NCBI RefSeq assembly: GCF_003403315.2
Contig: NZ_CP048407.1
Coordinates: forward strand, 434,001 to 498,000
Source: Thermaerobacter sp. PB12/4term
GTDB taxonomy: Bacteria > Bacillota > Sulfobacillia > Thermaerobacterales > Thermaerobacteraceae
Length of the DNA stretch: 64,000 bases
Direction: 5' to 3'
Below are positions 30,250 to 33,886 of the stretch, in pieces. Within the stretch, counting starts at the first letter, position 1. Each line of letters opens with the position of its first letter. Made by a program: the position numbers and the translations under genes. The notes beneath the pieces were generated by a model. The model had not been told where the DNA came from and made no database searches. It was given only the letters and a program-made list of their open reading frames with translations.

Positions 30250-30283
30250 CCACCCGCTCTGCTCGGGTGGGGCAGGCTTTTTT
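30250..30283 (+). terminator. Second terminator-like element
   Basis: CCACCC (30250-30255) pairs with GGGTGG (30265-30270); a run of six T follows at 30278-30283 after a 7-nt gap. It may back up the acs terminator. Confidence 0.45.
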
Positions 30284-30297
30284 GCGTTGCGCTCTGG

Positions 30298-30386
30298 TTG
30301 AAAGCGTCAAGAAAAGTTTACAATCGAACACGATTGATTTAAGTGGTCGCCTCCTATTTCGCCATCGTTCGACAGGTTTTGTCGAA
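30298..30386 (+). promoter_or_regulatory. Promoter region with two inverted repeats
   Basis: TTGAAA (30298-30303) and TACAAT (30319-30324) form a possible promoter with a short 15-nt spacer. CAATCG-AACA-CGATTG (30321-30336) overlaps the -10 hexamer. A second perfect repeat, TTCGACA-N5-TGTCGAA (30368-30386), lies 44 nt further. The block is A+T-rich relative to its surroundings and precedes the composite regulator gene by about 140 nt. Confidence 0.6.
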
Positions 30387-30523: not shown

Positions 30524-33500
30524 ATGGAACTGGCGCCTGATGGGCCACTGGCGCCTGGCGCACCGCACCTGGAACGGCCGGGCACCGGGGGCGCAGGGCC
30601 CCGCCTGGACCAGCCCCAGGATGCGGCGCCCGCCGGAGGGCAGGCCCCGCCTCCGGAGGCTGGGCCGGCGCAGGCCGGTTCGTCCGGTACGCCGGCGGGC
30701 GGGCGGCCAGGCGCCGGCCGGGCCGAGGCGGGAGTCGAGGCTGGGGAAGACCACCGGGCCGAGGGTCGAAGCGGGGCCGAAGGCGAACCCGGCGCCGCTG
30801 CCGCTGCTGCCGGCCTGGCGGGGATCCCCCTCGACTTGCTGGACATCCCGCCCCGGGTCCGCCTGGCGCTCCAGCAGAGGGGTTACGAGACCGTGGGCGA
30901 TCTCGCCTGGCGGCATGACCCGCGGCTTCTGGCCGCCCGCGGCATGGGGACGCGGGGCCTGCTGGCCCTGGTCACCGAGCTGGCGCGGGTCATGGCCGAC
31001 GGAGCCTACCAGCGGCAGCTGCTGGCCCGAGCCACCCGGTATGACCCCCAGCGGTTCCCCGAAGCCGTTCGCCGGCGGCCCGTGGATGATCTCGGGCTGG
31101 GCCAGCGGGCCTACCGGGCCCTGCGGCGGGCAGGGATCCAGACCGTGGGCCAGCTGCTGGAACTGGGGGAACCGGGGCTGCAGCGGCTGCGGGGGCTCGG
31201 GCCCCGCTCCCTGGCGGAGATCTGCCACCGCCTGGACGCCCTGCAATCGGGCCGGCCCTTGCCGCCACCCGGCGGTGCCACCGGCGACCCCCTGGCCCCC
31301 GATCTGATGGACGATCCGGCCCCCATCGGTGCCCTGCTCCTGCCGCGCCGGGTGGTCACCGCCCTGCAGCGGGCGGGGCTGCACACCGTCGGGGCGGTGG
31401 CCGGCTTTACGCAGGAAGGGTTGCGCCGGTTGCGCGGGCTGGGGGAGAGCGGCGTCGCGACCATTCTGCAAAGCCTGCACCAGTACCGGCAGGAGCGCAG
31501 CCGCAGGGAAGCGTTCCCCCGCCGGCTGGAGGACTGGCTGCAGGAGCTGATCGAGCCGCTGGCCGATCGGGAGCGGGAAGTGCTGGCCCTGCGGTACGGC
31601 CTGCTGGGAGAGGAAGCCCACGACCTGTCGGCCATCGCCGCCCGTTGGCAGACCACCCGCCAGTGGGTCAGCGTGGTGCAGGGGCGGGCCCTGCGCCGCG
31701 CCAGGGCCCGGGCACGACTGGAGCGCTTCCAGCCGCTGGTGGACGCGGTCCGGGCTGCGGCGACCCGCTGCGGCGCCGCGGGGCCTGCCGAGCTGGCCGA
31801 GGCCCTGCGCCAGGACGGCACGGTGGGCGTGCCCGAGTCGACCGACGAGGCGGTCCGGCTGGTGGGCCTGCTGGTGCACGTGACGCCCGGGCTGCGGCGG
31901 GTGGCGGGGTCGACCTGGTCGACGGTGGAGATCGCCCAGCACCTGCCGGAGGCGGCCCAGCGCCTGCAGGAGTTCCTGGCGGCGGCCGGCCGCCCGCTGG
32001 CCCTGGCCGAACTGGCCGCCCACCTGGAGGAAGGCACGGGGGACCTGCCCGCCCCTGCGGAGGCGCTGGCCCGAGCGGTGGTGACCACCCAGGCTTCCTT
32101 CGCCCGCTTCCCCGGCGGGACCTACGGCCTTGCCAGCTGGCGCGCGGGACGACGGATGCGGGCCCGGGACTACGTCTACCAGGCGCTGCAGCGGCACGGG
32201 CGGCCCCTGCACTACGCCGAGCTCACCCGGCTGGTCAACCAGCTGTTGCCCGAAGGGCGGAAGATGCCGCCGACCCACGTGTTGACCATCCTGTCGTCGG
32301 GGGAGCCCTTCCGCCGTGTGGACCGGGGGATTTACGGCCTGAGCCACTGGGAGCGGCAGCCGGAGCGGAACCTGGCGCAGCTGTGCCGCGATGCCCTGGC
32401 CGAAGCCGGGGAGCCGGCCAGCCTGGACCAGGTGGTCGCGGCCGTCCAGCGGGTGCGCAGGTACCCGCGGCGGACGGTGGCCCGGGCCCTCAACGAGGAC
32501 ACCGCCGTGCTGCGCTACGGCCGGGATCGGTTCGGCCTGGCCGCGTGGCTGGCGACGGACCCCCGGGCCGCGGGGGCGGTGCGAGTGCCTGCCTATGGCC
32601 CCCGCCCTACCAACCTGGCGGCGGTGCGCGGGCTGCTGGCCGAGCTCCTGGCAGGTCACATGTACGACACGTCCCAGCTCACCTCGTACCTGGGCCGCTG
32701 GCGGCAGCGTTCCCAGGCCCGGCAGGTCATCGCCTACCTGGCCACCATGGGCTGGCTGACAGGTCTGGAGGACACCTGGACGGCCACGTCCCTCAACGAC
32801 GGGTGGGTCCGGGCGGGCGGCGAGATCGATCAGCTGGCCGCCCTGGCCCTCGCCGACCCCGCCTTTGCCCACGCCGTCGTGCTCCACGGCGCCTTCCGCC
32901 AGCTGGCCCAGGGGGATGCAGGGCCGGCCGGCCCGGGGGGCGCGGACTCCGTACCGGGACCTGCGGGGGACCGTTCCCGCTGGAGCCTGCCGGGCACCGC
33001 CCGTCACGACGGCCGGCCGGCCCCTGACCTCGCCGCCGCCGCGGCGGGCGGGGACCGAGGCGCCGGCGGGGCCGGGTCCGCAGGGCCCCGGGAGTCCGCT
33101 GTACCGACCCTGGACCAGGCCGCTGGCTGGCTGGCGGGCCGCATCCGCCGGGCCTCTGGCGCCCGGGGGGAGGAGCCGGGCCCCGAGCTGCTGGAGCGGC
33201 TGCGCCGGCAATGGCAGGTTACCGCCTGGTTCGACCCCTGGATTTCCCTGCTGGTCCCGGAGCGGGCGGCAGCGGCGGGCGGGGCGGGTGAGCCCGGAGG
33301 CGCAGCAGCTGCCGCCGCGGCGGACGAACCGGCGGCCGCCGGCGGGGGCCGCGGCCGGGGCGCCCTGGCCCGGGCCGCCTTGTGGGACCAGGCGGTGACC
33401 CGCCTCTGGCCCCGCCACCCCGTTCACCTGCCGGCGGCGTGGGTGGAGACGCCAGCGACGGCCTGGGCCATCCTGGCCGACGTGGTGGCCTCCTGGTCGG

Positions 33501-33886
33501 GGCCGGACCGGGTGGTCGACCTGGAGGCTCTGGGGGACTGGTGCCGGTCACGGGGGCTGGACGCCAACCCCGTACAGATCGAGGCGGAACTCTTCGCTCT
33601 GGGGCTGTGGCCTGTGGGCGAGGGCTCGCGCCTGCGCCTCTACATGCCTTACCGGCTGGTGGTACCGCCGGGCGGGTTCGGTGCCGCCGGCCTGCCCGGG
33701 GGCGCCGGCCTGGCCGACGCAGCGGCCGCCGCGCTGGAGGGCTCCGGGGTGGTCGCTGCAGCCCCCGCGGGCTGGCCCGCGGCGCCCCAGGCCCGCGTCG
33801 ATGTGATCCCGCCCCTGGGGGGCGGGGGCCCGGCGGAGGCCGCAGCGCTGGGGGAAGAACCGGGCGGCGACACCCGCGACGGGTAG
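30524..33886 (+). CDS. Composite protein: alpha-CTD-like, sigma region 4-like and HARE-HTH-like modules
   Basis: A 1120-residue protein. After ~100 disordered residues come three helix-hairpin-helix units: about 105-157; 190-241 (GQRAYRALRRAGIQTVGQLL, LRGLGPRSLAEI), which closely resembles the RNA polymerase alpha C-terminal domain; and 270-322. Then follows a sigma region 4-like helix-turn-helix (about 345-400: LADREREVLALRYGLL, LSAIAARWQTTRQWVS). Three winged-helix units each ending in a shared motif (GTYGLASW, GIYGLSHW, DRFGLAAW; about 480-540, 545-610, 616-676) fit the HARE-HTH class. The C-terminal 400 residues are partly ordered and unrecognised. ATG 30524 follows GGAGGGG by 5 nt. It looks like a DNA- or polymerase-binding protein with no enzyme active site that I can see. 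Confidence 0.85.
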   Translation: MELAPDGPLAPGAPHLERPGTGGAGPRLDQPQDAAPAGGQAPPPEAGPAQAGSSGTPAGGRPGAGRAEAGVEAGEDHRAEGRSGAEGEPGAAAAAAGLAGIPLDLLDIPPRVRLALQQRGYETVGDLAWRHDPRLLAARGMGTRGLLALVTELARVMADGAYQRQLLARATRYDPQRFPEAVRRRPVDDLGLGQRAYRALRRAGIQTVGQLLELGEPGLQRLRGLGPRSLAEICHRLDALQSGRPLPPPGGATGDPLAPDLMDDPAPIGALLLPRRVVTALQRAGLHTVGAVAGFTQEGLRRLRGLGESGVATILQSLHQYRQERSRREAFPRRLEDWLQELIEPLADREREVLALRYGLLGEEAHDLSAIAARWQTTRQWVSVVQGRALRRARARARLERFQPLVDAVRAAATRCGAAGPAELAEALRQDGTVGVPESTDEAVRLVGLLVHVTPGLRRVAGSTWSTVEIAQHLPEAAQRLQEFLAAAGRPLALAELAAHLEEGTGDLPAPAEALARAVVTTQASFARFPGGTYGLASWRAGRRMRARDYVYQALQRHGRPLHYAELTRLVNQLLPEGRKMPPTHVLTILSSGEPFRRVDRGIYGLSHWERQPERNLAQLCRDALAEAGEPASLDQVVAAVQRVRRYPRRTVARALNEDTAVLRYGRDRFGLAAWLATDPRAAGAVRVPAYGPRPTNLAAVRGLLAELLAGHMYDTSQLTSYLGRWRQRSQARQVIAYLATMGWLTGLEDTWTATSLNDGWVRAGGEIDQLAALALADPAFAHAVVLHGAFRQLAQGDAGPAGPGGADSVPGPAGDRSRWSLPGTARHDGRPAPDLAAAAAGGDRGAGGAGSAGPRESAVPTLDQAAGWLAGRIRRASGARGEEPGPELLERLRRQWQVTAWFDPWISLLVPERAAAAGGAGEPGGAAAAAAADEPAAAGGGRGRGALARAALWDQAVTRLWPRHPVHLPAAWVETPATAWAILADVVASWSGPDRVVDLEALGDWCRSRGLDANPVQIEAELFALGLWPVGEGSRLRLYMPYRLVVPPGGFGAAGLPGGAGLADAAAAALEGSGVVAAAPAGWPAAPQARVDVIPPLGGGGPAEAAALGEEPGGDTRDG

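Follow-up and report, generated by a model that had tools for sequence, protein, structure and literature searches.

A conserved chromosomal Thermaerobacter protein with alpha-CTD-like, sigma region 4 and winged-helix domains, a candidate promoter-binding regulator

Introduction

Promoter recognition is normally divided among the alpha, sigma and accessory subunits of RNA polymerase. In the C-terminal domain of the alpha subunit (alpha-CTD), R265 is the key DNA-contact arginine, and in sigma70 the residues R584, E585, R588 and Q589 of region 4 (R4) read or hold the −35 element, as known from established structures. Aravind and Iyer reportedly noted in 2012 that the HARE-HTH domain is also part of certain bacterial proteins in which traits of the alpha subunit of RNA polymerase and of sigma factors are united. 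A protein with these three module types in one chain is encoded in the window, the stretch of 64,000 nucleotides from Thermaerobacter sp. PB12/4term analysed here. The group reported in 2012 may include the lineage of the window protein, which differs from that group in its diverged R4 and in additional winged helices at the C-terminus.

A second described system with a similar arrangement is PglW of type-2 BREX, in which an alpha-CTD-like domain is followed by three winged helices; homologues of SspB, SspC and SspD are tied to phosphorothioation-based type-4 BREX (PMC12839542). To these descriptions our analysis adds a collinear core common to three families, conservation of the R265-type arginine, the divergence of R4, the C-terminal winged helices, a housekeeping synteny and relatives in defence operons.

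Results

The gene and its conservation

The open reading frame and its parts are as follows (all on the + strand; evidence in brackets).

30524–33886, +, gene for the alpha-CTD/sigma R4/winged-helix protein, 1120 aa (ORF, Pfam, orthologues, dN/dS)
30524–30814, +, N-terminal extension, residues 1–97, low-complexity and poorly conserved (orthologue comparison, dN/dS)
30815–31003, +, alpha-CTD-like HhH unit 1, residues 98–160, R111 equivalent to RpoA R265 (Pfam, residue alignment)
31067–31252, +, alpha-CTD unit 2, residues 182–243, the best match (Pfam, PDB sequence match, residue alignment)
31316–31498, +, alpha-CTD-like HhH unit 3, residues 265–325, R276 equivalent to R265 (Pfam, residue alignment)
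31523–31729, +, sigma-70 region 4, residues 334–402 (Pfam, PDB sequence match, residue alignment)
31733–31948, +, winged-helix-like segment a, residues 404–475, collinear in relatives (profile–profile collinearity)
31949–32146, +, HARE-like winged helix 1, residues 476–541 (collinearity, the weakest support)
32153–32356, +, HARE-HTH winged helix 2 (HARE2), residues 544–611 (sub-threshold Pfam, delta-profile alignment, dN/dS)
32360–32557, +, HARE-like winged helix 3, residues 613–678 (collinearity)
32606–32815, +, predicted additional winged helix, residues 695–764, helix-helix-helix-strand-strand (two low-confidence AF2 models)
32924–33088, +, low-complexity linker, residues 801–855 (orthologue comparison, dN/dS)
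33419–33673, +, predicted C-terminal winged helix, about residues 966–1050 (AF2 model, block pLDDT about 67–93)

The coordinates of the initial annotation proved right. The ATG start codon is preceded by GGAGGGGAAAG, and the gene is present in single copy within a complete 2.82-Mb one-contig genome. Orthologues with the frame kept were found in all five genomes of the window's family (f1), four of them from the window's genus and one from a second genus. Three pairwise comparisons over residues 98–1060 gave dN/dS ratios (omega) of 0.19–0.25, indicating purifying selection. The alpha-CTDs, R4 and HARE2 are under strong constraint, the N-terminal region and the internal linkers far less. The orthologue of the second genus is 1016 residues long and is missing much of the Ala/Gly-rich linker sequence.

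Neighbouring genes encode an MFS transporter, an acetyl-CoA synthetase, a SIS sugar isomerase and a periplasmic-binding-like protein. This housekeeping synteny is stable within the genus, and the acetyl-CoA synthetase gene lies upstream in the sister genus too. In the f1 genomes the gene is not part of a defence island, and there is no BREX operon at the locus. Relatives of the protein on plasmids or phages were not found by tblastn, scans of genome contigs revealed none, and the matches in a scan of viral contigs were almost exclusively to R4. The open reading frame is a genuine, conserved bacterial gene whose product is a large, predicted DNA-binding protein. The initial reading had seen no enzyme in it, and indeed no enzyme family was matched, Pfam included; the protein is, as far as its sequence can be read, made up only of copies of the promoter-recognition parts of RNA polymerase.

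Collinear proteins in two other families

A profile built from R4 and the winged helices was run against a sample of 398 genomes of the phylum. Matches over the full length, with E below 1e-90, occurred only in f1 (four genomes) and in two further Bacillota families, f55 and f99 (five genomes each). Among the other matches listed at the cut-off used, nearly all span R4 columns only and are sigma-factor-like; the exceptions, G191 and G321, are described below. The gene is chromosomal and present in 5/5 sampled genomes of both f55 and f99. Its neighbours are stable inside each of the three families and of housekeeping type, but differ between families. At three f55 loci (L050, L051 and L056) the gene is followed by one for a conserved protein of about 560–570 residues and by a gene resembling those for PHP-type DNA polymerase III subunits; a feoB-like gene, identified by eye, lies upstream in L050 and L051.

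Profile–profile alignments are collinear over the full length, with E-values of 4.9e-27 (f1–f55), 4.9e-16 (f1–f99) and 2.6e-27 (f55–f99). The part following R4 aligns on its own (1.1e-14 for f1–f55, 4.5e-12 for f1–f99), while ten column-shuffled controls of this part (f1 against f99) gave 0.054 or worse. Pfam detects four alpha-CTDs and R4 in the f55 proteins, with HARE just under the cut-off, and two alpha-CTDs, R4 and HARE, all over the cut-off, in those of f99. The order alpha-CTD(n)-R4-wH-wH-HARE(n) is common to these proteins and the window protein. Unlike the latter, they are about 570–640 residues long, carry four or two alpha-CTDs and a more sigma-like R4, and do not have the long C-terminus.

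The alpha-CTD units and sigma region 4

The three alpha-CTD-like units recognized initially are borne out by Pfam, where RNA_pol_A_CTD matches three stretches over the cut-off (E = 3.5e-23). Sequence matches of the window protein in the PDB are RpoA CTDs and region 4 of SigA, RpoD and RpoS. In unit 2, R195, G226, R228, S229 and E232 correspond to R265, G296, K298, S299 and E302. An R265-equivalent arginine is found in 44 of the 44 complete alpha-CTD units of f1, f55 and f99, and the same holds for G296. Unit 2 of f99 retains R265, N268, C269, N294, G296, K298, S299 and E302, the E. coli RpoA set RNC-N-G-KS-E; N268 is absent from the window alpha-CTDs and is replaced in unit 2. HhH units with R265 and G296 are common to RpoA and the window protein. 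Unlike RpoA, the window protein has three CTD units in tandem and no alpha N-terminal domain: only the CTD was matched, with no sign of the dimerization domain. A separate rpoA is encoded in the same genome.

A single sigma region 4-like helix-turn-helix had also been called, and Sigma70_r4 matches the protein over the Pfam cut-off (E = 3.2e-6). Its recognition helix reads TRQWVSVVQG, compared with TRERIRQIEA in the genome's own SigA, SRERIRQIEK in f55 and TRARIQQI in f99. The f55 helix equals that of sigma70 at R584, E585, R588 and Q589. The window R4 keeps R584 only, three of the four −35-reading residues being lost. We infer that the window family should therefore recognize a different site. 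The helix, diverged as it is, is invariant across f1.

An R4 over the Pfam cut-off is shared with the sigma-70 family. In contrast to sigma-70 factors, the window protein has no region 2 or 3 and has lost most of the −35-reading residues; region 2, responsible for core binding and −10 melting, gave no match in it, the R4 part alone being matched. MzaA of the MZA defence system likewise has an R4-like helix-turn-helix, and its alignment with the window protein covers the R4 part only.

HARE-HTH and further winged helices

The initial annotation proposed three HARE-HTH-like domains. This holds for the central winged helix (residues 544–611), which aligns with HARE domains of delta subunits from the same class (hhalign E = 1.9e-6); the Pfam match of HARE-HTH to the protein is under the cut-off (E = 0.0029). 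HARE2 is the best supported and most highly conserved of the winged helices. The flanking units 1 and 3 are placed solely by collinearity with relatives, and unit 1 is the fastest-evolving unit after R4 up to residue 680.

The C-terminal 400 residues had been left unassigned; they can now be divided into two low-complexity linkers and predicted winged helices (695–764 and 967–1047). Both AF2 models have low overall confidence: that of residues 330–800, built from five close sequences, is poor (mean pLDDT 53.6), and the mean for the other is 58.2. The C-terminal winged helix is the part of the C-terminus with the best model quality. When the C-terminal model was used in a fold search, nothing matched at E ≤ 0.001; the top-scoring small domains were winged helices. 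A likeness to FokI was dismissed as a weak match (0.015 over 13 Å rmsd). The C-terminus does not align with the HARE region and has no sequence relative in the PDB. As the second-genus orthologue does without much of the linker sequence, the C-terminus is best modelled as low-complexity linkers and winged helices, with no hidden enzyme as far as tested. In total the protein appears to contain no fewer than four or five winged helices, one of them with direct HARE support.

Discussion

A candidate regulator of promoters

Our preferred reading, to which we assign a probability of about one half, is that the window protein is a vertically inherited chromosomal transcription regulator which would bind promoter DNA by mimicking the upstream half of the contacts made there by polymerase, while lacking what is required for initiation. 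The alpha-CTD array would bind the A/T-rich minor groove in the manner of an UP-element contact, via its R265-type arginines. The adjacent R4 would read a neighbouring major-groove site, the canonical −35 element in f55 and one of altered specificity in f1, and the string of HARE and other winged helices may add contacts to DNA or to polymerase. On promoter-upstream DNA the protein would act as an occupant, a block or a mark, or would make contact with polymerase. It cannot stand in for sigma, because sigma region 2 and an alpha N-terminal domain are both missing and no enzyme is present. We infer DNA binding, promoter targeting and the direction of regulation alike. The Pfam matches to alpha-CTD and R4, the arginine present in 44/44 units, the collinearity, the synteny and the constraint on the alpha-CTDs, R4 and HARE2 argue for such a regulator; the diverged R4, the missing N268, the relatives in defence operons and the fact that no regulon was found argue against it.

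The initial annotation had suggested a new transcription factor, a polymerase-binding protein or a sensor of modified DNA. A regulator or polymerase-associated protein is the best-supported role, but 'new' is doubtful, because the combination of alpha-CTD, sigma and HARE was reportedly described in 2012 and PglW pairs an alpha-CTD-like domain with three winged helices. A design of this general kind had probably been described already.

More tentatively, and with the odds rather against it, the protein can be pictured as a stand-alone promoter mimic, in which tandem alpha-CTDs read an UP element and R4 a −35 element in the spatial order found in holoenzyme, so that it would compete with or gate polymerase at a set of promoters; the same string would also have been recruited as a controller or sensor in defence operons of the phosphorothioate type. 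A separate protein with tandem reading heads offers a natural test of promoter control through mimicry of holoenzyme contacts.

Relation to the delta subunit

It is unlikely, in our estimate, that the protein is an RNA polymerase-binding factor whose HARE docks on polymerase as delta does, whose R4 is in competition with that of sigma for the beta flap, and which replaces a missing delta. The HARE-HTH domain is common to delta (RpoE) and the window protein, and HARE2 aligns with it. Within the window's class, 95 of 154 genomes have a HARE match, which passes the cut-off in 93 and in most cases lies in an ORF about as long as that of delta, whereas no separate delta was recognized in the 15 genomes of f1, f55 and f99 that carry the fused gene; in G000, G002 and G003, matches to the delta profile are limited to the fused gene. 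However, the sister family f2 has neither the fused protein nor delta, and the whole class containing f99 is devoid of delta, so the mutual exclusion may be merely phylogenetic. Delta binds polymerase at the beta' shelf/jaw and has one N-terminal HARE, while that of the window protein is internal and one among several winged helices. The delta tail is intrinsically disordered with a net charge of −47; the last 60–100 residues of the window protein contain 10–13% D+E and are not acidic. The distribution in f2 and in the class of f99, together with the missing acidic tail, makes replacement of delta possible but weak.

Relatives in defence operons

Three more distant proteins, with R4 and either alpha-CTD or winged-helix parts, head operons that resemble defence systems. 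In G191 (L055 1930–15998, G191:C21), an R4+HARE protein of 1051 residues, matching the family profile over the post-R4 columns at 8.5e-26, is encoded by the first gene, followed by genes for a PAPS reductase (BrxP/SspD-like), SspB/DUF4007 and SspC-like ATPases; this is a type-4 BREX/Ssp-like defence operon. In G321 (L192 3352–13045, G321:C6), the gene for an alpha-CTD+R4 protein of 1135 residues precedes those for PbeA (SF2 helicase, 5e-218), PbeC (ABC ATPase, 1e-174), a small protein and a radical SAM protein. Its post-R4 part matches f55 (E = 1e-6); the values for f1 (0.075) and f99 (0.058) are not significant. On the Abditibacteriota plasmid AP024153.1 (L193 26–10720), a 568-residue protein annotated as RpoD, in which Pfam finds sigma R4 only, is followed by an Eco57I-type methylase, DUF4007, AAA and SspC-like proteins.

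These operons are consistent with a protein that senses phage or non-self DNA, its alpha-CTD/R4/HARE string recognizing invading or modified DNA and controlling defence genes. PglW, in which an alpha-CTD-like domain likewise precedes winged helices, points the same way, its alignment being confined to alpha-CTD unit 2 (180–243). None of the further parts of PglW (kinase, NERD nuclease, iSTAND) was matched in the window protein, Pfam detecting neither of the first two. Whereas the G191, G321 and AP024153 proteins head Ssp/Pbe/BREX-type operons, the gene of f1, f55 and f99 is fixed, syntenic and set amid housekeeping genes, and the window protein has no plasmid or phage homologue. We consider a role as such a sensor improbable. 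As distant relatives of related architecture head defence operons, the ancestral role may have been defence, and the family connects core transcription modules with defence operons bearing related R4/HARE proteins.

A nucleoid-associated architectural protein, one that uses many weak domains to bind DNA at large and has little specificity for promoters, would fit the many small DNA-binding domains on flexible low-complexity linkers and the diverged specificity residues of R4, but is very unlikely, since invariance of the recognition helix within the family suggests a specific site.

The upstream region

Four features precede the gene.

30256–30276, +, hairpin resembling a terminator, between the genes for acetyl-CoA synthetase and the window protein
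30294–30324, +, conserved AT-rich block CTGGTTGAAAGCGTCAAGAAAAGTTTACAAT, probable promoter region (many positions invariant in 5/5 genomes)
30321–30336, no strand assigned, inverted repeat CAATCG-N4-CGATTG (4/5 genomes)
30368–30386, no strand assigned, inverted repeat TTCGACA-N5-TGTCGAA (upstream of the gene in 5/5 genomes, essentially gene-specific)

An Rfam match upstream of the gene, a sub-threshold miRNA, was discarded as a chance match. The half-sites TTCGACA and TGTCGAA are spaced by N5, N6 or N16 among the five genomes. A slightly relaxed pattern of this palindrome finds 0–2 other sites per f1 genome, and it was rejected as the operator of a regulon. In G001, extra palindrome bases lengthen the stem in the RNA fold, and two of three leader RNAs fold better than their shuffled versions (z = −3.3 and −3.9; −1.1 for the window). 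An mRNA hairpin therefore appears as likely as an operator for the palindrome at 30368–30386.
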